A stretch of DNA of 26,863 nucleotides from a virus. Positions 3,314 to 24,854 of the stretch are shown piece after piece. A program made the translations under genes and the position numbers. Where the stretch lies: positions 1 through 26,863 of the IMG/VR virus record IMGVR_UViG_3300033144_006805; one strand, 5' to 3'. The notes beneath the pieces were generated by a model, which was not told the DNA's origin, ran no database searches, and worked only from the letters and a program-made list of their open reading frames with translations. Each line of letters starts with the position of its first letter. Position 1 is the first letter of the stretch.

Positions 3314-3536
3314 TTTCTTCACTCTCCTTTCCTATAATTTTTATCTTTGTTTCAATGAAGCCGCATAAATTGAAATAATGAAATACTTCAACTTTCTGCT
3401 TCATTTTTTTGCTATACATCTTTGAGCACTCCCGGCATTTTACCTCAAAACAATTAGTCTTTTTATCAGCTTTTACAACTTTCCCAAAAAGTCTAAAAGC
3501 GTGTTCTGGACATCTTATTTCTTTAATTTCTTCCAT
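3303..3536 (-). CDS. Small zinc-ribbon-like protein between tail genes
   Basis: This 77-residue basic protein carries CPEH near residue 9 and CREC near residue 34, a spacing that fits one zinc site. It resembles the short Com-type and zinc-ribbon peptides found in phages. There is a further Cys at about residue 58 (NLCGF). Its start overlaps the end of the glycosyltransferase gene (14 bases) and its end overlaps the tail tube gene, so all three are probably translated together. No specific function can be assigned. Regulation of translation, or a structural tail part, are both possible. Confidence 0.55.
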   Translation of the reverse strand: MEEIKEIRCPEHAFRLFGKVVKADKKTNCFEVKCRECSKMYSKKMKQKVEVFHYFNLCGFIETKIKIIGKESEENGR

Positions 3537-4575
3537 TATTTAACTCCTCTAAATATATTATAGCTTTTTTTGCGAAATTCTCAAAACTATAAAGTTCTAC
3601 CATTCTTACTGCATTCTTACTTAATGTAACAAGTTTTTCCCTATTATAATATAAATCTATTAATGCACTGATAATATCATTTTTATTAACTTCTGCCCAT
3701 TTACTATCTTCTTGCACATCATCCCAATGAGTAACTTTTACTAGCTTATAAGGTATGACTTTGCAATATTCGCTATTTACCCAAGTACTATGACCTCCCC
3801 AATTATGAGTTATAACAACTCCTCCTGTAGCTAAAAATTCTACTGCAACCTGATTAAATCCTTCTCCCCTGCTTGCACAAATCATAACATGACATTTATT
3901 ATAAAATTCTTTTATTTTTTCTCTATCCCATACCCCTTCATAAACATGAATATTTGGATTTACTTCTGATATTTTAGGGTGTACTGTTCTCTGACTATTT
4001 TTTAAATAAAATTCAATTGGTAATTTTTTTATCTTTTCATCAAGCATCACATCAGTTAAAATATCAATTCCTTTTCTATAAGTTAATGCACCATTTATAC
4101 AAACTTTTAAAGTTTCATCAAAAAAATCCCTCTCAAACGGAGCATAAAAATCTGTATCTACCCCCAATGGAATAATTTTTATTTTATTTTTATCAAAAAC
4201 TTCTCCAAACGGCTCTAAATTCATTTCACATGGAACAAAAATACTCGTATAATCCACAAAATCATTTTTTTTGAAATTTTTTGTAAGTTTTGTTTGCTCC
4301 CACATTGTAAAAGCAATTTTATTTTTTATAAATTTTAAATTTTTTGGAATCTTTAGGTTATTAGGAGTATCAAAATTAATATAAAAATCAATATATTTTC
4401 CAATAGGATATTTTTTCATTAATAAATTTAAAAATTTTTCAGGCATATCAAAACCTATAGACTTTACTATAGGATATACGTCTACATTTTTATTTTGCAA
4501 TTCTATAGCCAAATTTGTAGCTGTATTGCCGTAACCACTTATTGTATTAAAATTTGCATGTAAAAATATTTTCAT
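3523..4575 (-). CDS. Family 4-type glycosyltransferase next to the tail tube gene
   Basis: This 350-residue GT-B-type glycosyltransferase has an N-terminal sugar-acceptor half with 'TISGYGN' (11-17), and a C-terminal nucleotide-sugar half with 'NGALTYRKGIDIL' (161-173) and the retaining-enzyme signature GEGFNQVAVEFLATGGVVI beginning at 237. Length and motif order fit GT4. It starts by an ATGA overlap with the preceding coiled-coil gene and has a GGAG site. It is not a normal member of a tail module. Its place two genes upstream of the tail tube gene suggests that it modifies a tail protein, but the donor and acceptor are unknown. It shares the GYG element with the first glycosyltransferase domain of the 842-residue protein at 9313-11841. 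Confidence 0.85.
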   Translation of the reverse strand: MKIFLHANFNTISGYGNTATNLAIELQNKNVDVYPIVKSIGFDMPEKFLNLLMKKYPIGKYIDFYINFDTPNNLKIPKNLKFIKNKIAFTMWEQTKLTKNFKKNDFVDYTSIFVPCEMNLEPFGEVFDKNKIKIIPLGVDTDFYAPFERDFFDETLKVCINGALTYRKGIDILTDVMLDEKIKKLPIEFYLKNSQRTVHPKISEVNPNIHVYEGVWDREKIKEFYNKCHVMICASRGEGFNQVAVEFLATGGVVITHNWGGHSTWVNSEYCKVIPYKLVKVTHWDDVQEDSKWAEVNKNDIISALIDLYYNREKLVTLSKNAVRMVELYSFENFAKKAIIYLEELNNGRN

Positions 4576-5500: not shown

Positions 5501-5866
5501 TTATCCCCTTATTACTCCTGATAATACTTTTATAATGCTGGGTACTGCTTGTTCTACCCCACGAAGCATATAATGTCTATTTTTCCTTGAAGTCAATTCT
5601 ACTTTTACAGCATATTCAACAGCAGTTCCAAAAGTAATACTATTCTTATCTAGTTTGAATACCCCTTCTTTTGTAGGATTACCAATACTTCCTCTAAGTC
5701 TACCAGTAACTACAGGACAAGTTATTTTGCAATATGATACTCCTACATGCCCCGCTTGTTTTAAAACAATTGGAATATTCATATCAGTTCTTTGCGCTAA
5801 TTCTTGCAATGCTTTATTTAATTTTTGCTGATCGCCCGGCCGTAATTTTAATGTAACTGCTTCCAT
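5501..5866 (-). CDS. HK97 gp10-like neck protein
   Basis: This 121-residue protein fits the HK97-gp10-like family of neck/tail completion proteins. Conserved elements are visible: 'CPVVTGRLRGSIG' at about 50-62, 'FGTAVEYAVKVE' at about 79-90 and a C-terminal 'MLRGVEQAVPSIIKVL' helix. Length is normal for the family. It starts on the last base of the preceding head closure gene and sits between that gene and the tail terminator, the standard order. Confidence 0.85.
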   Translation of the reverse strand: MEAVTLKLRPGDQQKLNKALQELAQRTDMNIPIVLKQAGHVGVSYCKITCPVVTGRLRGSIGNPTKEGVFKLDKNSITFGTAVEYAVKVELTSRKNRHYMLRGVEQAVPSIIKVLSGVIRG

Positions 5867-6201
5867 TATGCTTTACCCTCTTTCCAACTTGTTTCTATAG
5901 TTCTATGTTTTACTCTAGTAAAACTTTCAGGTTCTATTATCTTCTCAATTTTATAATACTTAGAATTATAAACTACATGAGTAGCATCTGTTAAATCAGT
6001 ATCAATATCCCTAATAACAAATCTTCTAACTTTATAAGTTATCCAATTTTTATCATCAGTTAATTTATTTAAAACTTTTACAAATGCTCTACATTTTTCA
6101 TCTGTAAGAACATTTACATATGTATAAGTTTTATTTCCATTTTCATCTTCACCAGTTGTTCTAGATTTTACTGTAATTGTTCCATTAAATAATGCTTGCA
6201 T
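5866..6201 (-). CDS. Head-tail joining (head closure) protein
   Basis: This 111-residue protein fits the phage head-tail joining family (SPP1 gp16/HK97 gp7-like, Phage_H_T_join). It has an N-terminal 'ITVKSRTTGEDENGNKTYTY' segment, a central 'AFVKVLNKL', then 'RRFVIRDIDTDLTDATHVVY' and 'KYYKIEKIIEPES' near the end, the pattern of these small beta proteins. It starts by a TAATG overlap with the connector fusion gene. A GGGGG stretch 13 bases upstream is the only SD-like element, so translational coupling to the fusion gene is likely. Confidence 0.82.
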   Translation of the reverse strand: MQALFNGTITVKSRTTGEDENGNKTYTYVNVLTDEKCRAFVKVLNKLTDDKNWITYKVRRFVIRDIDTDLTDATHVVYNSKYYKIEKIIEPESFTRVKHRTIETSWKEGKA

Positions 6202-7817
6202 TATATTTTATAAACCCCCATTAAGTCATATACATATCCATCTAGCTTAACAGCTAATTCATAATCTAATATACTTGACAACCCTTCTGATTTACTATAA
6301 CCATAACCATCTGAAGTTCGTTCACTCTTAAATGGTGTCATCCATTGTCTTATATCAATCCGCTTTATTATTAATCGTTCTACTATTTCCATACAAATAT
6401 TTTTAATATCATCTGGAACTGTTTCCCAACCCCAATTTCCAGTTACTTGAATATTTTCAGAGCCTAACATAAACATTTTTTTATCAGGGTCTAATCTGCT
6501 TCTTACCCTATATCTAGGTCCATAACCATAAACAGGATATTCAGCTTCTAAGTAAGAATAATTATTACCATACTTCAAATTTACTAAACTTGTAAAATCA
6601 TACGAACTATCAACTACAGCAGTAACAGCTGTACATCTTGGATACAAATCTAAAATATCGCTATCATTACCATTAAAATACTTCGTTTCATTTTCTTCAA
6701 AAACATCAAAATCCTGCTTGCAGTATCTTTTTATTAATATTTTAGCATCATTTATTTTTCCTGTAATTACACTATCAGAAGAATTTACAACTTCTGATAT
6801 ATCAGCACTATATTCTTTAATTTCACGATGTTGTAACTTTTTAAAAGCTACTAACTGCTTATTCATTAGAGTTCCCTGACAAGCTACTGGGCATTTACTA
6901 TAATCAAAATTAGTCTGTATCTTCTTCCTATTATATAAGATAGCATTTATATCTTCCCATATCAAATTACCATATTTTGCGGTTTTATCTTTTAGCATTG
7001 TGCAACATATATAAAAATCACCTTTTGTATCTACTGCACCAATAAAATCAGCACCAGGACATCCTAAGTAAGATTTACGATAATTATTTTTTAGCTCTTC
7101 CCATTTATATTGCGTAGTCATTACTTTTATCTTATACTTTGCTCTTCTTACTTCTTCTAATTGTTTCTGTATACAACCCCATTCAGCTTTACTATACTTA
7201 TAATTTTCTATAGGTCTTATCTGACAATAATCTATTCCAGATGTTTCCCAATATTTTATAAAGTTTATAATTTCTCTATAATTAGCTTTAGCAACTACCA
7301 TTTGAACACCAATTGTTACAGATAAATTTTTTCTTGCCTTCTCTGCAACAGCTTTATGTATATTATCATCAACATCTAATAGCATATCTTTGCCCTTCAT
7401 TTCCTCATAGGTAGCTCTATCTGTAGTGTCAACCGAAAATCTAATCCAAGTCAAATACTCTAAAGCATTAGGATATATAATCCCATTAGTAATAAGTCCT
7501 AAATCAAATCCACAATTTCTTTTAGCAAATTTAGCTACTTCATGAAGACTAGAATGACAAGTAGGCTCGCCACCTGTAAATACAATTCCCTTTACTCCCA
7601 TTTTCATTAAGCTACAAAATATAGGGGCAACATCTTCTTTTGCCATTTCTTCTGCATTTATTCTATCTTTATAAACACAATAACCACATTTCAAATTACA
7701 TTTATCAGTCAGATAAACCTTAACTGTGATAGGTCTTACCAGCTTCCCGTTCAAATAGGCTTTAATCCTATCTGGATGATAAAATATTTTATTCGGCATC
7801 ATGTAATCCATATCCAT
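6201..7817 (-). CDS. Radical SAM/SPASM enzyme fused to phage head-tail connector (gp6-like)
   Basis: A single uninterrupted 538-codon frame with GGAG six bases before the ATG. Residues about 25-315 form a radical SAM enzyme: the [4Fe-4S] motif CNLKCGYC (C40, C44, C47), TGGEPT (81-86), and a SPASM-like extension with C253, C271, C272, C309 and C313 that may bind further clusters. Such enzymes often modify peptides or proteins through a 5'-deoxyadenosyl radical. Residues about 335-538 look like a head-tail connector (HK97 gp6/adaptor family): 'KINDAKILIKRYCKQDF', 'ETKYFNGNDSDILDLYP', 'IQVTGNWGWETVPDDIKN' and a C-terminal 'ILDYELAVKLDGYV'. The next genes are head closure, gp10 and tail terminator, so the connector is exactly where synteny requires it, and no other connector gene is seen. 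A possible internal start at M318 (6866) could also release the connector alone. The enzyme's substrate is unknown. Confidence 0.85.
   Translation of the reverse strand: MDMDYMMPNKIFYHPDRIKAYLNGKLVRPITVKVYLTDKCNLKCGYCVYKDRINAEEMAKEDVAPIFCSLMKMGVKGIVFTGGEPTCHSSLHEVAKFAKRNCGFDLGLITNGIIYPNALEYLTWIRFSVDTTDRATYEEMKGKDMLLDVDDNIHKAVAEKARKNLSVTIGVQMVVAKANYREIINFIKYWETSGIDYCQIRPIENYKYSKAEWGCIQKQLEEVRRAKYKIKVMTTQYKWEELKNNYRKSYLGCPGADFIGAVDTKGDFYICCTMLKDKTAKYGNLIWEDINAILYNRKKIQTNFDYSKCPVACQGTLMNKQLVAFKKLQHREIKEYSADISEVVNSSDSVITGKINDAKILIKRYCKQDFDVFEENETKYFNGNDSDILDLYPRCTAVTAVVDSSYDFTSLVNLKYGNNYSYLEAEYPVYGYGPRYRVRSRLDPDKKMFMLGSENIQVTGNWGWETVPDDIKNICMEIVERLIIKRIDIRQWMTPFKSERTSDGYGYSKSEGLSSILDYELAVKLDGYVYDLMGVYKI
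6864..6877 (-). promoter_or_regulatory. Possible internal ribosome binding site and ATG for a separate connector protein
   Basis: Within the fusion gene the minus strand reads AGGGA, six bases, then ATG AAT AAG in the reading frame (codon 318). This lies just after the last SPASM cysteines (C309, C313) and about 17 codons before the connector-like part. The spacing is good for initiation. Starting here would give a 221-residue connector without the enzyme. The AGGGA core is short and could be chance. Confidence 0.35.
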
Positions 7818-8437
7818 AGATATCTCCTCTCATTTGGGTCGTGCCACATCCGATAGCATTTATATCCGCACTTTTCTACTAATTCCCTTAACTCTATAGG
7901 CGTAAACCAATCTCCTGAATACCATTTATCTTGCCTTATAGGTTTTCCTCTCACTTGTATTTTAGCAATTCCATTTTTTAACAAGACCTTGCGCATAGCT
8001 ATCAAATTATCTTCAATCATCTCTTTCTTACAATGCTGAAAAACGGCATAAGAAAAAACTAAATCAGCTCTACAATCAGGAAGATTCCTCCCGTTAGATT
8101 CAAACCATATTATATTACTGCATTTTTTCAATCGTTTCTTACCCTTATCTATTGCTACTTTACTGATATCAACTGCATAAACCTGTTTAAATTCCTCTGC
8201 AAAAAACTCTGTCATTCTCCCATCACCACAGCCAATTTCTACTACTATTTTGTTTTTAAATTCTCCCAGATAATCTTTTAGCGTATTATCTTGTTGCACC
8301 AAGACACGATAATCACGCCACCCTGAATCAGCATACCCAATAGGTTTTACACGACCTTCTCTTGAATCTGAAAATATATATTTCTCTTGATATTCTTTCT
8401 CACTAAGCAATTTATTCCATTTTTCTTTGTGATTCAT
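7799..8437 (-). CDS. Class I SAM-dependent methyltransferase
   Basis: This 212-residue enzyme has the Rossmann-type SAM motif VVEIGCGDGRM (65-75), an acidic residue at the end of strand 2 (AVDIS, D90) and 'FSYAVFQHC' as motif IV-like, as in Methyltransf_11/25 proteins. The C-terminus ends in WIWIT. These enzymes methylate small molecules, sugars or proteins. DNA methyltransferase target motifs (DPPY) are absent. Start at ATG 8437 is favoured by AAGGAG four bases upstream, rather than the longer frame from 8461. It overlaps glycosyltransferase genes upstream and the radical SAM fusion downstream, so it belongs to the cargo cassette. Methylation of a transferred sugar is a plausible role but is inference. 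Confidence 0.82.
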   Translation of the reverse strand: MNHKEKWNKLLSEKEYQEKYIFSDSREGRVKPIGYADSGWRDYRVLVQQDNTLKDYLGEFKNKIVVEIGCGDGRMTEFFAEEFKQVYAVDISKVAIDKGKKRLKKCSNIIWFESNGRNLPDCRADLVFSYAVFQHCKKEMIEDNLIAMRKVLLKNGIAKIQVRGKPIRQDKWYSGDWFTPIELRELVEKCGYKCYRMWHDPNERRYLWIWIT

Positions 8438-9269
8438 ATATCTCCTTAAACAATCTAACATGCCAATCTCTAAAATTATCCCAAGTATTTATTTTAGATC
8501 TTGCTAATTTCTCTAACTTAGATTCTTCTTTTGTTTTGAAATATAATAGTAAATCTTCAAAATCATTATAAACAAAATCTTCAGCAGTTTTAAAGTCATA
8601 GAAAAATCCTATATCTCTTGAAACTATTGGAGTACCTGAATTAATCGCATTTATAATATCCATAGAACCACCTTCTACATAAGAAGTCTGCAAATAATAA
8701 TCTATAGTTTTAAAAAACTTGTCGCTATCTTCAAGTATTATTTCACAATCGCATACCTCTGATAACTGCTTGTAAAAACTTCTAAGCGACTCATCTTTTC
8801 CAAACAAGTAGAACTTAAATATATCTGTATCTAGATTTTTTGCTAATTCAAATAATTCACTTTCACCTTTTCTATTGTTATATAACAACCTCCCAGCAAA
8901 TCCTAACTTAATCTTCTTAAAATACTTAACAGAAGCACCTATACCATCAAATATTCTAACTTTACTTATAGGAATACCTAATCTTTTTAAAGTCAATTTC
9001 CCGTGCTGGCTTTTTGCTATGATTAAATCAGCTCTATTTAATGCTTCAATTTCTTGATATCCGCATAAATGACTAAACCATATGATATCAAATCTAGATT
9101 TCTTTACTTCAGGTGCAAACCTCTGCCAATTAAAATAATAATTAATATCCGCATTATAATCAGGCTCAGCACTTCTCGTTATCTCAATATTATTATTGCT
9201 AACCTCTAAAAGTCTTTTAGATATAATCCCTAAAATCCACTTGCCGTTATTAACTAAATGAACTTTCAT
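8412..9269 (-). CDS. Glycosyltransferase (GT4-like, cargo cassette)
   Basis: This 285-residue protein has a GT-B-like layout: an N-terminal half with 'DIIWFSHLCGYQEIEAL' and 'ADLIIAKSQHGKLTLKRLGI', then 'LGFAGRLLYNNRKGESEL' and the C-terminal donor-binding segment 'EGGSMDIINAINSGTPIVSR', matching the E-x7-E-type region of GT4 enzymes. The start at ATG 9269 is chosen because GGGAGG lies four bases upstream. A TTG at 9281 in the same frame overlaps that SD. It follows the 842-residue glycosyltransferase after a gap of 43 bases and overlaps the methyltransferase gene by 26 bases. It is somewhat shorter than typical GT4 enzymes. Confidence 0.77.
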   Translation of the reverse strand: MKVHLVNNGKWILGIISKRLLEVSNNNIEITRSAEPDYNADINYYFNWQRFAPEVKKSRFDIIWFSHLCGYQEIEALNRADLIIAKSQHGKLTLKRLGIPISKVRIFDGIGASVKYFKKIKLGFAGRLLYNNRKGESELFELAKNLDTDIFKFYLFGKDESLRSFYKQLSEVCDCEIILEDSDKFFKTIDYYLQTSYVEGGSMDIINAINSGTPIVSRDIGFFYDFKTAEDFVYNDFEDLLLYFKTKEESKLEKLARSKINTWDNFRDWHVRLFKEIYESQRKME

Positions 9270-9312
9270 TTTGCCTCCCAATAACCAAATTCACCTATAA
9301 CAGTACTCCTCC

Positions 9313-11841
9313 TTATGGATTAAAATATTTACTCAACTTATTTATTTCTTCATTATCATAAACTTCTGTTAGCACCATTGGTAATATTGTTAATCTAATA
9401 TTGTCATCCTCTAATTTTTTCTTAGTAACTACTAAATTTGATATTATATTGTTATCTCTTTCTACTACTGTGTTTCTGTAATAATTTCTATAATTAAAAC
9501 ACCTAACTGCTTCTATATCTTTTATTTTCATCATCTCTATCATTTTTTCTAAATGCCTTGATTTAAAACATACATTATCTTCTATAAAAGCTATATATTT
9601 TGTTCTGCATTTTTTAACTCCAATATTTCTTGCATTTTCATTAAATTTATCTAAACGGAAATATTTTATTCTATTATCATTAAATCTTTTAACAATTTTT
9701 TCTGTATCATCTTCTGAAGCATTATCTACTATTATCAACTCCCAATTAAAATATGATTGCGTCAGCACTGACTTAATTGTCTTATTTATATTTTCAGCAT
9801 TATTTCTAGCAACATAAACAATACTTATCTTATCTTTAGGTTTCTCTAATATTACATCATTTTCTACATAATAATTTTCAGGATTTTTTTGTCTTTTCCT
9901 AAATATCACATGTCCCTGCTCTGCCATTTCAGCGCCACTAAAACCTAAACTTGCTTTTATTTTACTGTGAAAATGATAAACATAAGCACCTTTAGCCCAA
10001 TAAATTTTATATCCTTTTAATCCTGCTCTCCAGAATAAATCAGTTTCGTTGCTTGCTAATTGGTAGTACCTTTTCCAATCATATACTCCAACATCCTCAT
10101 AAACTTTTCTTTTAACTAAATGACAAAATCCATATACAGTAAATATTTGCCTCTCTTCAAATCCATCTTTTAGTGTCTTTGAAAAATCAACTACATCTCT
10201 AACTATATTCTTACTCTCATCTCTTTTAAAAGGCACATATGCAACATTTTTTGTCAATGCTGATTGACTCGGGACGCATATTCCACAATCCTCATTTTGC
10301 TTCATACAATCTAACATTTTAGTTAACCAGCCAGGAGTTACTATTGTATCTATATCTAACATACAGATATAATCATATTTTGCCAACTTAATCCCCTGAT
10401 TACATCCATAAGCATATCCCATATTTCTTGTATTTGTTAAAACTCTTACATTTTTTACTTTTCTTTTTAACTTCTTTAAAAACTCTTTAACCTCTTCATT
10501 AGAATTATTATCAATCAATATTAATTCAAATTCTTCATCAGTATATTTATAAATACTTCTAACACATTGCCTTAAATATTTTAAATTATCTTTAATTGTC
10601 ATTATTATGCTAACTTTATCTTCATACTGTCTTATACCAAATAAAACTTCTTTTAATCTTTTATCAAAATTTTCAAACCTAAAATACTTATTAACATATT
10701 CAGCAGCCAATTTACCTTTAGCTCTTGCTTCAGCCTGATTATCATAAATATATCTCATTAATTTTCTAATATCTTTAACTTTAACAACAGCCCAATCTCC
10801 TACATCGCCATAATCTTTACTATACATTGCCTCTTCAAGTTTCGTTACTCTAATAGGATAGCAAATATCTTCTCTAACAAATTCTTTACACCCCATCCAA
10901 TCAGTAACTATTGTGGGAAGACCTGTTGCCATTGCTTCAAGTGGTGGTAATCCAAAGCCTTCACCATGTGTTGGAAAAACAAAACAATCAGATAACCTAT
11001 ATAATTTATTCATTTCGCTATAGCTTAATTTTTCTCTAATTATTTTTATCCTTGAATCTTGTTTTATTTTACTTATCATTTCTGTAGATAGTGATAAATT
11101 TGAAGATTTTAAAATAAATCTTACTTTATCATTACCTTTAAATTCTTTCTTAAATGCCTCTACTGCTTCTAAAGCCCCTTTTCTATTTGCAGTAGTAACT
11201 GTTCCAACAAATAAAAAAGTGAAAATATCTCTTTTAGGACGCTCAAAATATTTATATCTATTATCAGCCCATAGTGGCACTACGTTTATAGGAATATTGA
11301 CACCGCAATTTTTAAATACTTTTTTAACCTCCTGCGCTGGTACTATCAGCTCATCACAAGTATTATGTATAAATTCTTTCCAATCTTTTGGTATTTTAGT
11401 AGTTTCAAACATAGTAAAGCCTACTACTTTTTTAAAGCCATTGATTTTTCTAAATCTATCAGGAGAAGTTAGTTGTATGATTATATTTTCAGGTGAAATA
11501 TCGCTTAAATCTTTTTGCTTTGATTTAGAGTAATCTAAGTTATCTCTAGCAGATTGTACTACAGTAGGATACTTTTGCAATATCTTATTACCAACACAAC
11601 CATAACCATCAACTTTAGATATATGTCCAGTTACAAAAGCAAAATTAGATTTCTCTACTTCAGATTCTACAGACTTCTTAGACTTTAGTTCTTTAACTTC
11701 TGTAATTTTAAATTTACCAGTCTTTTTAAACAAATCCACAAGTTCTTTCGGTATAATCTGCGATTTGTTATCTTTAACATCAAAATGGTATCTATCAAAA
11801 CTAAAAGTCTTACCCTTTACTAATGTTGCTTTGTAAGGCAT
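9313..11841 (-). CDS. Three-domain glycosyltransferase (GT4-GT2-GT2) with N-terminal small phage domain
   Basis: This 842-residue protein sits close behind the major capsid gene. Residues 1-52 (KATLVKGKTFSF, then DLFKKTGKFKI) resemble the 58-residue protein encoded immediately upstream. Residues about 65-400 are a GT4 domain: 'SKVDGYG' near 75, 'FLFVGTVTTANRKG' (209-222) and GEGFGLPPLEAMATGLPTI (293-311). Residues about 408-645 are a GT2 domain, starting VSIIMTIKDN with a DID metal motif at 496-498. Residues about 670-842 are a second GT2 domain (ISIVYVARNN, LIIVDNASEDD) whose DxD position reads EDN (754-756), so it may be altered or less active. It starts by a TAATG overlap with the upstream small gene. 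The combination could add several sugars in sequence. Acceptor and donors are unknown, but the place next to the capsid gene suggests a head protein. Confidence 0.87.
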   Translation of the reverse strand: MPYKATLVKGKTFSFDRYHFDVKDNKSQIIPKELVDLFKKTGKFKITEVKELKSKKSVESEVEKSNFAFVTGHISKVDGYGCVGNKILQKYPTVVQSARDNLDYSKSKQKDLSDISPENIIIQLTSPDRFRKINGFKKVVGFTMFETTKIPKDWKEFIHNTCDELIVPAQEVKKVFKNCGVNIPINVVPLWADNRYKYFERPKRDIFTFLFVGTVTTANRKGALEAVEAFKKEFKGNDKVRFILKSSNLSLSTEMISKIKQDSRIKIIREKLSYSEMNKLYRLSDCFVFPTHGEGFGLPPLEAMATGLPTIVTDWMGCKEFVREDICYPIRVTKLEEAMYSKDYGDVGDWAVVKVKDIRKLMRYIYDNQAEARAKGKLAAEYVNKYFRFENFDKRLKEVLFGIRQYEDKVSIIMTIKDNLKYLRQCVRSIYKYTDEEFELILIDNNSNEEVKEFLKKLKRKVKNVRVLTNTRNMGYAYGCNQGIKLAKYDYICMLDIDTIVTPGWLTKMLDCMKQNEDCGICVPSQSALTKNVAYVPFKRDESKNIVRDVVDFSKTLKDGFEERQIFTVYGFCHLVKRKVYEDVGVYDWKRYYQLASNETDLFWRAGLKGYKIYWAKGAYVYHFHSKIKASLGFSGAEMAEQGHVIFRKRQKNPENYYVENDVILEKPKDKISIVYVARNNAENINKTIKSVLTQSYFNWELIIVDNASEDDTEKIVKRFNDNRIKYFRLDKFNENARNIGVKKCRTKYIAFIEDNVCFKSRHLEKMIEMMKIKDIEAVRCFNYRNYYRNTVVERDNNIISNLVVTKKKLEDDNIRLTILPMVLTEVYDNEEINKLSKYFNP

Positions 11842-12039: not shown

Positions 12040-13047
12040 TTATGAGGTGGCTAGTTTATGTTTTATATCTTTTGCAACTACAACTGCATCAGTTTCTTCT
12101 ATCTGCCAATCAACATTAATTGTTCCGGTTATTTCTACTTGTCTCTTTCGTGGCTTATTTTCAGAAACAAATTGCATATCCGTCTGAATATATTCAATCA
12201 GATTTTTAGGATTGCATAACATTGCTTTTGAAACATAATAAGCAGGAGAACCAGTAGAAGTTCTTGACAATCTAGGAACTCCAACTACAGGTATTCCCTG
12301 ATAGAATACTGGCGGATTATCAACTAAATAATTCATAGCGCCTGCATGAGTAGCGCCAATAGCAGTTAGCCATCTCCTATATAGCCATTCTATATCTACA
12401 TGCACATAAAATCTCCAAGCTTTTAGGTCTGCACCATCTAAATATTTTTTAGGTAGTGCATCTAACATATCATCAAAAAGCTTAATAGTCTTATCTGCTG
12501 TAGAAGCAAAATTAGCATCAGCCCAATCTACCTCATGATCAGTCGCACCTAACTGGAACCATCCAGCATTATCATCGTATACGCCGCTACCGGTACTGGT
12601 ATTAGAATTAACTGCAACAGCTTCTAAATCAGTTCCAGCTTTTCTTGATATTCTTTTCATTAGATTATTCTCAAATCCAGCTTTTTCTATAGAGTTCCTA
12701 AGAGCACTCCATCCTAAATCAACTGCTATCAAGTATTCAACAGTAGAAATATTAACTTGACTTGTAGAAGGACCAGTCGTAGTAGTATGCTCTGTTCCTT
12801 CTGCTTCAGGAGTTTGAATCAATAAACTGGCAAACTCTATTTTATCTAGATCTACTTTCTTTTCATCTCCAGTTTCTCTTCGGCACTCTGCTCTCATTAC
12901 TGCTCTCTCTAAAGTTTCCTCTATAAATTTATCAAGCTGCCGTGCATTTAACAATCCTCCACTAGCTAAATCTGAATCTGTAAAAATAGTTTTATTCCCA
13001 AAAAACTTCTTATTTAATTCATCTAATAATTGCTCATTCGTTAACAT
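12040..13047 (-). CDS. Major capsid protein (HK97 fold)
   Basis: This 335-residue protein follows the protease and scaffold-like genes, as expected for the capsid subunit. Segments resemble HK97-fold capsid proteins: the long N-terminal helix region (residues 1-60), 'VDLGWSALRNSIEKAGFENN' with 'LMKRISRKAGTDLEAVAVN' (E-loop/spine helix area), 'DDNAGWFQLGATDHEVD', 'WRFYVHVDIEWLYRRWL' and a C-terminal P-domain beta region 'YYVSKAMLCNPKNLIEYIQ'. An AAAGGAG site precedes the ATG. The N-terminal part could be the portion removed by the upstream protease. I cannot identify a cleavage site. Confidence 0.85.
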   Translation of the reverse strand: MLTNEQLLDELNKKFFGNKTIFTDSDLASGGLLNARQLDKFIEETLERAVMRAECRRETGDEKKVDLDKIEFASLLIQTPEAEGTEHTTTTGPSTSQVNISTVEYLIAVDLGWSALRNSIEKAGFENNLMKRISRKAGTDLEAVAVNSNTSTGSGVYDDNAGWFQLGATDHEVDWADANFASTADKTIKLFDDMLDALPKKYLDGADLKAWRFYVHVDIEWLYRRWLTAIGATHAGAMNYLVDNPPVFYQGIPVVGVPRLSRTSTGSPAYYVSKAMLCNPKNLIEYIQTDMQFVSENKPRKRQVEITGTINVDWQIEETDAVVVAKDIKHKLATS

Positions 13048-19292: not shown

Positions 19293-20713
19293 TACAGCAC
19301 TCCCCCCGTAACAACTTGCGCCATAACTCTGACTGGAACTACCCTCATACCAATATCAATCGCATCTAAAACATCATCTTTGTAATTTTCATCACCATAA
19401 TTTATAAATTCCTCTATCAATTCATGCTGGCTTTCAAGTATTAATATTCTACCACTTTCATAATCTACTGAACGACTTTCTAATCTAAACTGCTTAGATT
19501 TAGTAGATGTTACTCCAACTACAGGAAGCCCCTGTAAAAACAACTGCTGTTTTAACGCTTTCTGATAATAGTTATCTTCAACGCCAATTCTAACTGGCCG
19601 ATATATTTCATAATAATAATGAATTTTTTTAATTTGTTCCGGAAACGACAAAACATCATAATAAGTTTTTAAAACATATACTTTACTGGTTTTAGGTTCT
19701 AATCCTAATACAGCTATTACAAACCAATTATGTTTAGAAGCCTCTAATCTGTTAATATTACTTTCTGCAATATCAGGGTCAACGCCAAAATAAATTTGTA
19801 AATTATTCATATCAATCTCATAATCTTTATAAAAATGCAGCCACTCACTTTTAAATATTCTACCTTCTAATGCTTCTATTCTATTTTGCCATCCTCTTTC
19901 AAAAACTAATGTACCGACATCTTCTCTTTTTTTTCTTAGTACCTCTATTGGAAATTTATCAGGCCATAATGTAATTCCCTTCTCTTCATCAATAATAGCC
20001 TGCTTTCTTATATAATGATAATTTTTCCTCTTCGCTAATCTATTACCTAAATCATCTTTATGTTGCATAGTCCCTATATTAGCTATATGCCCACCTTCAA
20101 CTACTCTAGAAGTTACATCATTTAACCACCAATCTTCAGCTTTATCTCTCAACATTTTAGTATGCATATTTTTTCTATTACATATATCATCACCAATAAT
20201 AAAATCAAACCTACCACCTAATATATCTCCACCCATTCCTACAACTTCTACTGTAGGATCTTTAGATATACTATCTCTCTGCACATAGATTTGATAATCA
20301 GTCCATTTTTCAACTTCTTCATTTTTTTTAAGGTAAGGAAAATCCTCAAGCAATAATTTATTATTAAGCAAATGCCAGCTTATTACTGATAAGCATTTTT
20401 GAACCAATTTAGGTGTAGAAGAAATAAGTAAAATCTGAACATTTGGATTTCTTACGATTTGCCATAATGGAAATACTATAGATATCCAAGTAGTTTTAGC
20501 ATGTTCAAACGGAACATGAATTTGAACTCTCTCATATTTTAATATTGCACCTATCAGCTCATAATGCAGAGGTGCAGTCTTAGAAGTCCACTTTCCATCA
20601 TAGGGCTTTATATATCTCTCGCCAAAATAAATACAATCTTCTAATGATAAACATATATCTTGCTCCCTTACAGACATACTCATATATATTTTAGCAACTT
20701 CATCTATTGACAT
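19292..20713 (-). CDS. Terminase large subunit
   Basis: This 473-residue packaging motor combines an ATPase and a nuclease. The ATPase part has a Walker A-like 'VPFEHAKTTW' (67-76, K73), which is less canonical than GxGKS, a 'LLISST' strand and the Walker B 'RFDFIIGDD' (168-176). The nuclease part begins near 'YFGVDPDIAES' (about 311) with further acidic sites in 'RIGVEDNYYQKA' and 'KDDVLDAIDIG'. It drives DNA into the prohead through the portal. It overlaps the small terminase gene by 14 bases. Confidence 0.9.
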   Translation of the reverse strand: MSIDEVAKIYMSMSVREQDICLSLEDCIYFGERYIKPYDGKWTSKTAPLHYELIGAILKYERVQIHVPFEHAKTTWISIVFPLWQIVRNPNVQILLISSTPKLVQKCLSVISWHLLNNKLLLEDFPYLKKNEEVEKWTDYQIYVQRDSISKDPTVEVVGMGGDILGGRFDFIIGDDICNRKNMHTKMLRDKAEDWWLNDVTSRVVEGGHIANIGTMQHKDDLGNRLAKRKNYHYIRKQAIIDEEKGITLWPDKFPIEVLRKKREDVGTLVFERGWQNRIEALEGRIFKSEWLHFYKDYEIDMNNLQIYFGVDPDIAESNINRLEASKHNWFVIAVLGLEPKTSKVYVLKTYYDVLSFPEQIKKIHYYYEIYRPVRIGVEDNYYQKALKQQLFLQGLPVVGVTSTKSKQFRLESRSVDYESGRILILESQHELIEEFINYGDENYKDDVLDAIDIGMRVVPVRVMAQVVTGGVL

Positions 20714-21191
20714 CTATATTCTCCTGTAATTTCTTTCTTTCTTTTATAGCAAATTCTATAAATCTTCTCTTTTCATCAGGAGTTAATATCTTAAGTTCTT
20801 TCTGAAATTTAACAATATGCTCAGTTTTAATTGGCTTAGGAGTTTCAACTGATATTTTATCTTTTTTACCCCATCTTTCATACTTTACACGCTCTAGCCA
20901 CCATGCGGCAGCTTGCCAGCTCTTTACAGCAGCCGTTTGTATTATAGTAACGTTTCTAACTTCAGCTTCAGCTTTAGCTTTTTTTATAGCTATGTATAAA
21001 TTGCAAAATTTCTCATCATCTTGAGATATTTCTTTACCCTGCTTTTTTAGTTCTAATGCTTTTTCCCCTTTCTTAAGCCAACGCCATAAAGTAGAAACAT
21101 CTATGCCTACAGCATTACAGGCAGTCTGTACATAATTACCAGCCCTTATTAGTTTTATTAACGCATTTTCTAATTCTGGACTGTACTTCAT
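20700..21191 (-). CDS. Terminase small subunit
   Basis: This 163-residue protein has an N-terminal helix-turn-helix ('AGNYVQTACNAVGIDVSTLW', residues 17-36), a helical middle part rich in Ala/Lys, and 'AAWWLERVKYERWGKKD', common in phage small terminases. It would recognise the packaging site and load the large subunit, whose gene follows with overlap. Its start shares a base with the stop of the methyltransferase gene (21191). Confidence 0.87.
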   Translation of the reverse strand: MKYSPELENALIKLIRAGNYVQTACNAVGIDVSTLWRWLKKGEKALELKKQGKEISQDDEKFCNLYIAIKKAKAEAEVRNVTIIQTAAVKSWQAAAWWLERVKYERWGKKDKISVETPKPIKTEHIVKFQKELKILTPDEKRRFIEFAIKERKKLQENIDVNR

Positions 21192-22357
21192 TATATCCCT
21201 TTCTCCCTCTCTGCGTTTTTACCTATATATTTTTCCCATCTTTTTACTATTACATCGCAATAGTACGGGTCAATTTCCATCATATAACATCTGCGTTTTA
21301 GCTTTTCACAAGCTATAAGAGTTGAGCCTGAGCCACCGAATAAATCTATAATTATATTATCTTTGTTACTAAATTTATGAATAAACCATTCGCATAATTG
21401 AATTGGTTTTTGTGTTGGATGAATCCGTTTTTTAATATCTTGTGTTTGAAGTCCCATAACTCCAGCCCACTTAACCATTAAAATTTCTTGTCTATGTTTT
21501 TGTTTACTCCATAACATCTCAAATTCACTTCCAACTACCTGTTGGGTATGACCTGCGGTTTTATCCCAAATAAACCAGCTTCCCCCTACTGGCAATTCTT
21601 TTAAATAATAGTTTGCTCCCCACCAAAATTGTTCCCTGCAATCTAACCAATCAAAATCTTTAAAATTAAAAATTTTATTATCACCAATTATTTTTTTATA
21701 GGTTTTACTATCACAATAAGAAACACGACCTTTCCAATTTTTAGATATTGGCGAATAGTCTGTATCTAAATTTATTCCATATGGCGGGTCTGTAAAAACC
21801 ATATCTGCTTTTTGTCCATTCATTAATTTTTCAACATCTTCAATTTTAGTAGCATCCCCACATAATAACCTATGCTCACCTAGTTTGTATAAATCTCCTA
21901 ATTTGGTTATTGGCTCTTCTGGCGTTTCAGGAGCTTCATCATCTTTTTCATCAGGTTCATAAAACTGTGCCATTAATTCTTCTATATCAGAATGTTCAAA
22001 ACCAGTAATATCTATATTTATATCACCAATATCAAGTTCTTGAAGTAAATCTTTAAGTTTAGGCAAATCCCAATCTGTCTCATCCTGTAATTTATTATCT
22101 GCTATCATATATGCCTCAGCTTTAACACCTCTTAAAGGTAGAAATATTACAGGCACTTCTTTAATTCCTGCTTTTTTAGCAGCCTTTAATCTTGCGTGTC
22201 CCGCTAAAACAAATCCTTCCTCCGAGGCAAGGATAGGATTAGTCCACCCAAATTCTCTCATACTCTTCGCAAGTTTATTAATTGCGCTGTCTGGGTGCAC
22301 CCTAGGGTTTTTTGGATGTAATTTTAAATTTTCTATCGGCACTTTTATTACTTCCAT
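21191..22357 (-). CDS. ParB-like domain fused to DNA methyltransferase
   Basis: This 388-residue enzyme has a ParB/Srx-type N-terminal domain (about 3-90, with 'NPRVHPDSAINKLAKSM' and GHAR at 53-56), then an N6-adenine or N4-cytosine methyltransferase with DPPY at 190-193 and DLFGGSGST at 338-346. The motif order (IV before I) is of the beta group. This fusion is common in phages and often lies just before the terminase genes. It probably protects phage DNA from host restriction. A linker near 133-150 is acidic. No SD precedes the ATG. A TATAAT lies seven bases upstream, so the transcript could be leaderless. Confidence 0.9.
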   Translation of the reverse strand: MEVIKVPIENLKLHPKNPRVHPDSAINKLAKSMREFGWTNPILASEEGFVLAGHARLKAAKKAGIKEVPVIFLPLRGVKAEAYMIADNKLQDETDWDLPKLKDLLQELDIGDINIDITGFEHSDIEELMAQFYEPDEKDDEAPETPEEPITKLGDLYKLGEHRLLCGDATKIEDVEKLMNGQKADMVFTDPPYGINLDTDYSPISKNWKGRVSYCDSKTYKKIIGDNKIFNFKDFDWLDCREQFWWGANYYLKELPVGGSWFIWDKTAGHTQQVVGSEFEMLWSKQKHRQEILMVKWAGVMGLQTQDIKKRIHPTQKPIQLCEWFIHKFSNKDNIIIDLFGGSGSTLIACEKLKRRCYMMEIDPYYCDVIVKRWEKYIGKNAEREKGI

Positions 22358-23407: not shown

Positions 23408-24214
23408 CTAATCGGGTAGCACTTGAGTTCTTTTAATCCATCCCGAATAATACGAATACCTCCTTTCTGTATCATATAGTTGTGCTACCATAAAAAAAAA
23501 AAAAAAATCTCCAATTCCTATGCATTTTCTACCTAAATCTTTGCAGGCTCTCGCTGTAGTTCCTGAACCTAAAAAAGGGTCAAGGATTGTGTCGCTAGGA
23601 TTGCTATTAATCTCAATTAAATGTCTTAATAATTTTAATGGTTTTTCTGTGGGATGTTTTGTTTCCCCATAACTTGATTTATTTGTAGTTATAAAATAAT
23701 TATTCATCTCTTTTTGTAATTTAAAATTCTTTATTCTACTTTCTCCCTTGCTACCAACCCAACAGAACTCTGTAGCTGAAACCCAATTCATTTTTCTAAA
23801 CGACGGAGTAGGATTTGATTTTATCCAAACAAAAATACAACGGGACTTTAGTTTTAATTTAGGAGCAAAAAATAAATCAAAATATCCTATTTTCTGTTTA
23901 TCAAAGAAAATATATATCCAACCCTTATCTTTTAGACATCTTACTGTTTCTCTAAACCATAATTCTGTAAAGTTAAAAAAATCTTTATCGTTCTTAAAAT
24001 GATCCCACTTGCCAAAATCTAGCTTAATATTACTTTCCCTTTTCCAGTTATAATGTTTGTAATTTCTTTTTATTTCCTTATCATTCTGGCTAATTGCATA
24101 TGGCGGGTCAGTTAAAACCAAATCAATACTTTCATCTGGCAATTCCTTCATAACTTCTAAACAATCTCCACAATATATAGTTATATTTTCTTCCTTGTAA
24201 TATGGTTTAATCAT
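23408..24214 (-). CDS. DNA methyltransferase with abnormal C-terminus
   Basis: This 268-residue DNA methyltransferase (beta group) has DPPY at 36-39, 'KHPTEKPLKLL' (186-196), and DPFLGSGTT at 212-220, so the catalytic and SAM-binding parts are complete. After 'GRKCIGIG' (where relatives normally read GIE and an ending helix such as NxxYxxxAxxR), the frame runs through a 16-T tract giving five Phe, then 27 unrelated residues ending VLPD. The normal last helix is therefore missing. ATG 24214 is chosen because AGGAG lies 7 bases upstream and the start overlaps the preceding gene. Activity is uncertain. Confidence 0.8.
   Translation of the reverse strand: MIKPYYKEENITIYCGDCLEVMKELPDESIDLVLTDPPYAISQNDKEIKRNYKHYNWKRESNIKLDFGKWDHFKNDKDFFNFTELWFRETVRCLKDKGWIYIFFDKQKIGYFDLFFAPKLKLKSRCIFVWIKSNPTPSFRKMNWVSATEFCWVGSKGESRIKNFKLQKEMNNYFITTNKSSYGETKHPTEKPLKLLRHLIEINSNPSDTILDPFLGSGTTARACKDLGRKCIGIGDFFFFFMVAQLYDTERRYSYYSGWIKRTQVLPD
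23492..23507. repeat. Homopolymer of 16 A/T inside methyltransferase gene
   Basis: Sixteen A on the plus strand, read as T16 in the gene. Loss of one T gives an immediate TAG shortly after (Phe run, then LW and stop). Gain of one gives a stop six codons later. Length change would therefore alter the C-terminus. It could be phase-variable, a transcription slippage site, or an assembly error. Confidence 0.85.
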
Positions 24215-24854
24215 TTGGAAACTCCTGTATTTTTTCATGCCATTTTAGGTTGTCTTTTATAAAAATTGGCTTGCCCCAAAACCTTGCCTGTTTTATTATA
24301 TTTTCTACCCATTCATCTCTATGCACAGGCTTTGGAGTTAATCCCCCTATGATAATCCAGTCTACTACTGATATATATTGTCTATAATAAACATTGCTGT
24401 TTAGCAGTGGTTCATAGCTTATAAATTTTTTATTATCATTTAGAAATGTAAATCCCAACATATCTCTACCCAATTTTCCTATATTTTCTTCTCCTGTTAT
24501 AGTTACCCCAAGCCAACAGTTTTTAGGAAATTCAAAATGTTTTATTCTTGCGGGGAATTTACTTAGAATTTGAAATATATGCTGTGGGTATTGCTTTATT
24601 TTTAAAATTGTATAGTAAATCCAATCATCGCAAATCCAATCACCAAATAAATCGTGCATTGAGCAAGTAAAAATCTTAGATGGCTTCTTAATACTTCTAA
24701 TTTTGTCAAATTCTTTTTCATCCAATCTGATTTCAGGATTCCACTTAAATCTTTTATACATTTTTCTTGCATAGCAATACCAGCAGTCATTTTTGCATAA
24801 TCCTTTTACAGGGTTTATTGTATAATCGCACCATTCTATTTTTGTTTTATTCAT
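24207..24854 (-). CDS. Phage Gp37/Gp68 family (DUF5131), radical-SAM-like protein
   Basis: This 215-residue protein begins MNKTKIEWCDYTINPVKG and has 'CKNDCWYCYARK' at 20-31, the Cys cluster typical of the Gp37/Gp68 family, which is distantly like radical SAM enzymes. Later segments 'CWLGVTITGEEN' and 'FISYEPLL' and 'VVDWIIIGG' are family features. The biochemical role is not known. These genes occur often in phages near DNA modification genes, as here (methyltransferase directly downstream, overlapping by 8 bases). Confidence 0.82.
   Translation of the reverse strand: MNKTKIEWCDYTINPVKGLCKNDCWYCYARKMYKRFKWNPEIRLDEKEFDKIRSIKKPSKIFTCSMHDLFGDWICDDWIYYTILKIKQYPQHIFQILSKFPARIKHFEFPKNCWLGVTITGEENIGKLGRDMLGFTFLNDNKKFISYEPLLNSNVYYRQYISVVDWIIIGGLTPKPVHRDEWVENIIKQARFWGKPIFIKDNLKWHEKIQEFPND

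Follow-up and report, generated by a model that had tools for sequence, protein, structure and literature searches.

The window, that is, the whole 26,863-nucleotide stretch of viral DNA analysed here, contains a gene that joins a radical SAM (rSAM) enzyme to a head–tail connector (Table 1). The gene is known from this one metagenomic contig, IMG/VR record IMGVR_UViG_3300033144_006805. Its strong ribosome site (-9.1 kcal/mol) precedes a frame encoding a chain of 62 kDa. A preliminary description of the DNA had proposed a single in-frame fusion, and this is borne out by the open frame, by Pfam and phrog_442 matches to the two halves, and by a seam that can be mapped against unfused relatives. 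We looked for a stop or frameshift near 6860-6900 that would separate two genes, and none is present in the sequence. The proposal that this is the only connector of the operon also stands: we recognised no other in the window, and the head closure and gp10-like genes come next.

Table 1 Features of the fused gene and its surroundings.
Feature	Position	Strand	Evidence or remark
Gp10-like tail completion/Neck1 protein	5501..5866	-	phrog_5, 8.7e-6
Head closure protein	5866..6201	-	Phage_HCP, 2.5e-5; phrog_793
Fused gene, rSAM enzyme plus head–tail connector	6201..7817	-	538 aa, stop included; uninterrupted 538-codon frame, ATG at 7817, stop ending at 6201
Head–tail connector part, residues 334-538	6204..6818	-	phrog_442; 75% identical to L008/L009 connectors
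Seam, where rSAM tail HREI meets connector KEYSAD	6818..6821	-	comparison with unfused relatives of both halves
rSAM part, residues 1-333, up to the natural C-terminus of the family	6819..7817	-	Pfam PF04055; model; DesII match
Met318 ATG, inside rSAM tail; only common start codon (ATG/GTG/TTG) near connector	6864..6866	-	possible internal start
AGGGA, weak and ribosome-site-like, 6 nt before Met318	6873..6877	-	-5.1 kcal/mol
Auxiliary-cluster-like cysteines C253, C271, C272, C309, C313	6879..7061	-	nearly invariant in alignment
CxxxCxxC (C40, C44, C47), SAM [4Fe-4S] cluster ligands	7677..7700	-	nearly invariant in alignment
Class I SAM methyltransferase, cassette, overlapping rSAM start	7799..8461	-	Methyltransf_25, 2.4e-15
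Glycosyltransferase (GT4-like), cassette	8412..9281	-	Glyco_trans_1_4, 2.2e-7
842-aa glycosyltransferase with one GT4 and two GT2 domains, opening the cassette after capsid gene	9313..11841	-	Glycos_transf_2, 6.2e-51; Glyco_trans_1_4, 7.3e-18
Major capsid protein	12040..13047	-	phrog_1623, 5.7e-56; distant match to annotated capsid proteins

A changeable cassette and the seam

From the capsid gene towards the connector, the cassette runs from the large GT4/GT2/GT2 glycosyltransferase (GT) through the second GT and the methyltransferase to the fused gene, which is last. Scans with the capsid protein found IMG/VR relatives 77-87% identical to it, and these provided the sister phages. In L003, L008 and L009 different enzymes (GTs, methyltransferases and an Asp/Glu racemase-like protein) occupy the same place, so the cassette is changeable; no rSAM gene was found in these three records, which are fragments. 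L002 is 99.5% identical to the window over 4.4 kb, with one gap and no mismatches, and ends in the capsid gene, before the seam.

The first ~60 codons of the large cassette GT contain a KATLxKGKTF...KSQI segment that is conserved in L003, L006, L008 and L009, while the rest of the protein varies. This start matches phrog_10977, which has no assigned function (5.5e-5 in L003), and may derive from a small protein of the head operon that became joined to the GT; that it is a known head protein is unsupported, phrog_10977 being the sole match. In L006 (3217-5211; also L005, 5063-6067) an intein-like segment (CFPSETKINF...VHN) seems, judged by eye, to break into a cassette GT after EAMA, and a LAGLIDADG-like frame (AGFIDGEG, L006 4325-4972, also by eye) lies in a different frame from the interrupted GT. 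A second GT4 gene of the window (3523-4575), inside the neck/tail module, keeps its place in L008 and L009, unlike the changeable cassette. Elsewhere in the window are two DNA-methyltransferase-like genes (21191-22357, by eye with a ParB-like N-terminus, and 23408-24238) and a weak Radical_SAM match (24207-24854; 16.9 bits, below the cut-off) with CxxxCxxC-like cysteines, perhaps Gp37/Gp68-like.

Relatives of the rSAM half share a C-terminal motif, C..C(R)....N......H..F[IL]-stop, which is the end point in 96 of the 98 distinct complete relatives from phages and other viruses, bacteria and archaea; none of the 98 has a C-terminal tail longer than 60 residues. Where these proteins finish with H.xF[IL] and a stop, the fused protein reads HREI-KEYSAD. 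Connector relatives start MSWPT....KAYSAD, and the window can be aligned with them from KEYSAD onward. At the DNA level, alignment with L008 and L009 reveals a 27-nt gap at the seam, and the window is without the stand-alone connector's ribosome site, its ATG start codon and ~8 codons. The compared sequences indicate that the rSAM part lacks nothing except its last residues, and the connector part only its first few. Given the stand-alone connectors of L008 and L009, and rSAM relatives that almost all end at the same motif, we interpret the seam as a clean fusion specific to this lineage. A single frameshift or stop-codon base error is ruled out as its cause, because the frame continues despite the loss of 27 nt and a ribosome site. 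No repeat longer than 13 nt, which could misjoin reads, was found at the seam.

Searches of IMG/VR with the exact junction DNA and with peptide patterns of the window rSAM returned no other contig, and scans with connector, rSAM and capsid profiles gave no second rSAM–connector fusion. The independent homologue with the same fusion that the preliminary description had looked to for support was therefore not found by DNA, peptide or profile scans. A literature search for rSAM enzymes fused to virion proteins likewise found none. Since every relative found of either half keeps the two apart, the fusion is, at the level of sequence, real and recent: a clean, well-delimited, lineage-specific join of two known parts.

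The two halves of the fused protein

Residues 35-170 match the Pfam Radical_SAM family PF04055 (1.2e-14; 55.2 bits against a curated cut-off of 29.5), and a GGEP motif is present at G82-P85. Conservation of the cysteines was assessed in an alignment of 23 rSAM sequences; although the five auxiliary cysteines are conserved, the SPASM family (PF13186) does not reach its cut-off (13.7 against 21.5 bits). In structure prediction of the whole protein, only the rSAM half came out well: the AlphaFold model is confident for residues 10-332 (pLDDT about 74-98), whereas confidence in the connector part is low. The model has the radical SAM barrel fold, matching solved rSAM enzymes with Z up to 26. The best match is DesII (Z 26.3 over residues 7-335; 324 residues, 3.5 Å), followed by BlsE (Z 25.6) and by the peptide-acting SkfB (23.6) and SuiB (22.1). 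The likeness to DesII and BlsE is at only 16-18% identity, with SkfB and SuiB close behind. Against the NCBIfam equivalog cut-offs, the BlsE model scores 36.2 bits where 400 are needed, and the DesII model is not among the 25 matches listed.

In a phylogenetic tree the window rSAM, on a long branch, groups with those of L015, L017, L018, L019 and MW202801, all with glycan-type neighbours, and with that of L016 (support 100/99). The rSAM of MW202801, a podovirus record, lies at 19640-20704, one small gene after the capsid gene, and is followed by GT, PhyH, methyltransferase, NodB-like and GT genes; it is 32-33% identical to the window rSAM. A separate clade includes a member beside a TET-associated glycosyltransferase (TAGT). 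Further relatives are found with a GDP-mannose dehydratase, PIG-L and GT2 in the viral L062, and with NeuB, a DegT aminotransferase and WbqC in the bacterial L118, where the rSAM is itself fused to a CMP-sugar-synthetase-like domain. The bacterial proteins that join a cytidylyltransferase domain to this rSAM family (L118 3269-4984; L098 3245-4981) offer a lead to the family's chemistry. The position in a glycan cassette, the DesII/BlsE-like predicted fold and the neighbours of the bacterial relatives together make a sugar or nucleotide-sugar/glycan-precursor enzyme the most likely identity of the rSAM half.

The connector half matches the phrog_442 head–tail adaptor family over residues 343-482 (9.4e-9 in the full protein, 1.2e-9 for the connector part alone; the best of three members scanned reaches 7.4e-12). 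Its gene occupies the same place between capsid and head closure genes as in L008 and L009, whose connectors stand alone at 215 aa, each preceded by AAGGAGG as its ribosome site (-12.1 and -11.4 kcal/mol). Two structure predictions of this part are of low confidence, with too few relatives, and no solved structure that matches it by sequence was found. As to a fold of the SPP1 gp15/HK97 gp6 type, a helical core into which a hairpin is inserted, the L008 connector has weak matches to YqbG (8.3e-4) and TIGR01560 (8.8e-3). Comparing connector alignments as profiles brought out only a WG..P motif, at 75% probability over 26 columns.

Some members of this connector family carry additional N-terminal sequence. 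TunaTartare gp31 fills the whole phrog_442 profile and has ~95 N-terminal residues with no counterpart in Vibrio and Rhodobacter adaptors; the Trina and Weasels2 proteins are extended likewise. In Streptomyces and Rhodococcus phages, connectors of this family thus have ~95 residues added ahead of the core. Actinophage connectors with an extra N-terminal domain of ~95 aa are encoded at L052 6939-7859, L053 235-1116 and L054 211-1137. By analogy with these proteins, whose N-terminus bears a different added domain in the same position, the connector ring should tolerate the fusion.

Products of the fused gene and their possible roles

The explanation we favour, to which we give about an even chance, is that a recent, lineage-specific fusion yields a chain whose glycan-type rSAM acts in the cell and whose connector domain forms the neck ring, the fusion being tolerated rather than required. 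In this group of phages the space between the capsid and connector genes is taken by a changeable set of genes for glycan-modifying enzymes, and here the last of these, encoding an rSAM whose substrate is probably a sugar nucleotide or glycan precursor, was joined in frame to the connector. By comparison with relatives, what was lost at the join is the stop codon of the rSAM, the connector's ribosome site, ATG and about eight codons, and probably also the last F-[I/L] of the rSAM; loss of the conserved F-[I/L] could impair the enzyme. The chain would fold as two domains, and the rSAM would work in the infected cell, feeding the neighbouring GTs and methyltransferase. In SPP1, gp15 attaches to the portal through its C-terminus and has its N-terminal helix at the periphery (PMC9701221); on this model the connector domain would form the neck ring under the portal, and the rSAM domain would sit on the outside of that ring. 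A minor amount of free connector may also arise from Met318. Counting against the favoured explanation, a neutral fusion would place about 12 x 38 kDa of extra protein on the neck.

Met318 could have a larger part. On a reading that we consider possible but distinctly less probable, one gene gives two products: the long chain, which serves as the enzyme, and a separate connector of 221 aa, translated from Met318, which makes up the ring mostly or entirely. This second product would be close in length to the 215-aa stand-alone connectors, no other common start codon lies near the connector, AGGGA precedes Met318 by 6 nt, and methionine is rare at this place, occurring in one of the 95 relative tails examined. 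Against this, the ribosome site is weak: it is equalled in strength at 20 of 138 internal in-frame ATGs and exceeded at 22 of 28 gene starts. Ile, Leu and Val are common at the same place, so the methionine may be drift.

Other readings are improbable to us. One is that each connector subunit of a 12-fold neck ring covalently carries a working rSAM domain that modifies head or neck glycans or proteins during assembly, or travels in the virion. Such a ring would put the enzyme beside the capsid, whose gene adjoins the cassette, and glycans have been reported on the major capsid proteins of mycobacteriophages (Freeman 2023, as cited in PMC11256854). Sister phages do without the fusion, the searches turned up no second one, and the fold suggests small-molecule substrates. 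Enzymes of the rSAM class depend on a reductant and are sensitive to oxygen, so in a free virion the enzyme would be dead. The earlier suggestion of an enzyme that acts on adjacent virion proteins or travels as part of the virion gained no support from our analysis. Nothing in it hints at a peptide as substrate, whereas the fold, the cassette and the setting of the bacterial relatives all suggest sugars or nucleotide sugars. An active enzyme borne in the virion is possible but unsupported; if the full chain does enter virions, it would represent a natural design for displaying an enzyme on the phage neck. A misassembly, or a defective genome unable to make a working connector, is similarly improbable. 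The fusion comes from a single metagenomic contig with no other in IMG/VR that shares its rSAM or junction, but the kept frame across the missing 27 nt and ribosome site excludes a one-base error, the seam lacks a long repeat, conserved residues are retained in both halves, and the neighbouring head genes are open. Slightly less probable still is that the rSAM hypermodifies DNA bases, as relatives beside a TAGT may do: family members in other phages adjoin ParB-like and TAGT genes (L014 TAGT, 5e-47), but the window rSAM belongs to the other clade, mostly of glycan cassettes, and its own neighbours are GT4/GT2 enzymes and a methyltransferase.

Comparison with known systems

The closest counterparts of the rSAM half are the cassette-borne phage rSAMs of MW202801, L015, L017, L018 and L019, which are of the same family, have the same C-terminal Cys/Asn/His motif and adjoin GT and methyltransferase genes. 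They differ in that all stand alone, end at F-[I/L] and are about 30% identical to the window protein. The fusion contig ties this phage rSAM family to capsid-adjacent glycan cassettes, and makes modification of virion or host glycans by phages testable. The bacterial L118 and L098 proteins share the rSAM family and C-terminal motif and are also fused to another protein, but there the partner is an N-terminal cytidylyltransferase, on bacterial contigs, and no virion protein is involved. Among characterized enzymes, the sugar-acting DesII, described in PMC11434129 as performing a radical deamination in TDP-desosamine biosynthesis, and BlsE give the best matches to the predicted fold, covering almost all of the rSAM half, at the low identity and without reaching an NCBIfam cut-off, as given above.

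For the joining of an enzyme-type domain to a phage head-assembly protein there is a precedent in the MuF polymorphic toxins of temperate phages (PMC5576092). As compared from the literature, these differ in carrying toxin domains, in that MuF is not a connector, and in the position and chemistry of the added domain. Within the phrog_442 family, the L008 and L009 connectors share the operon place of the window protein and have no extra N-terminal part, whereas the TunaTartare gp31 type of Streptomyces phages has an extra domain at the same position, of ~95 aa and not an rSAM. The window presents a neck connector gene that has absorbed a whole metabolic enzyme, at a connector N-terminus that, as in the actinophages, is a site accepting added domains.
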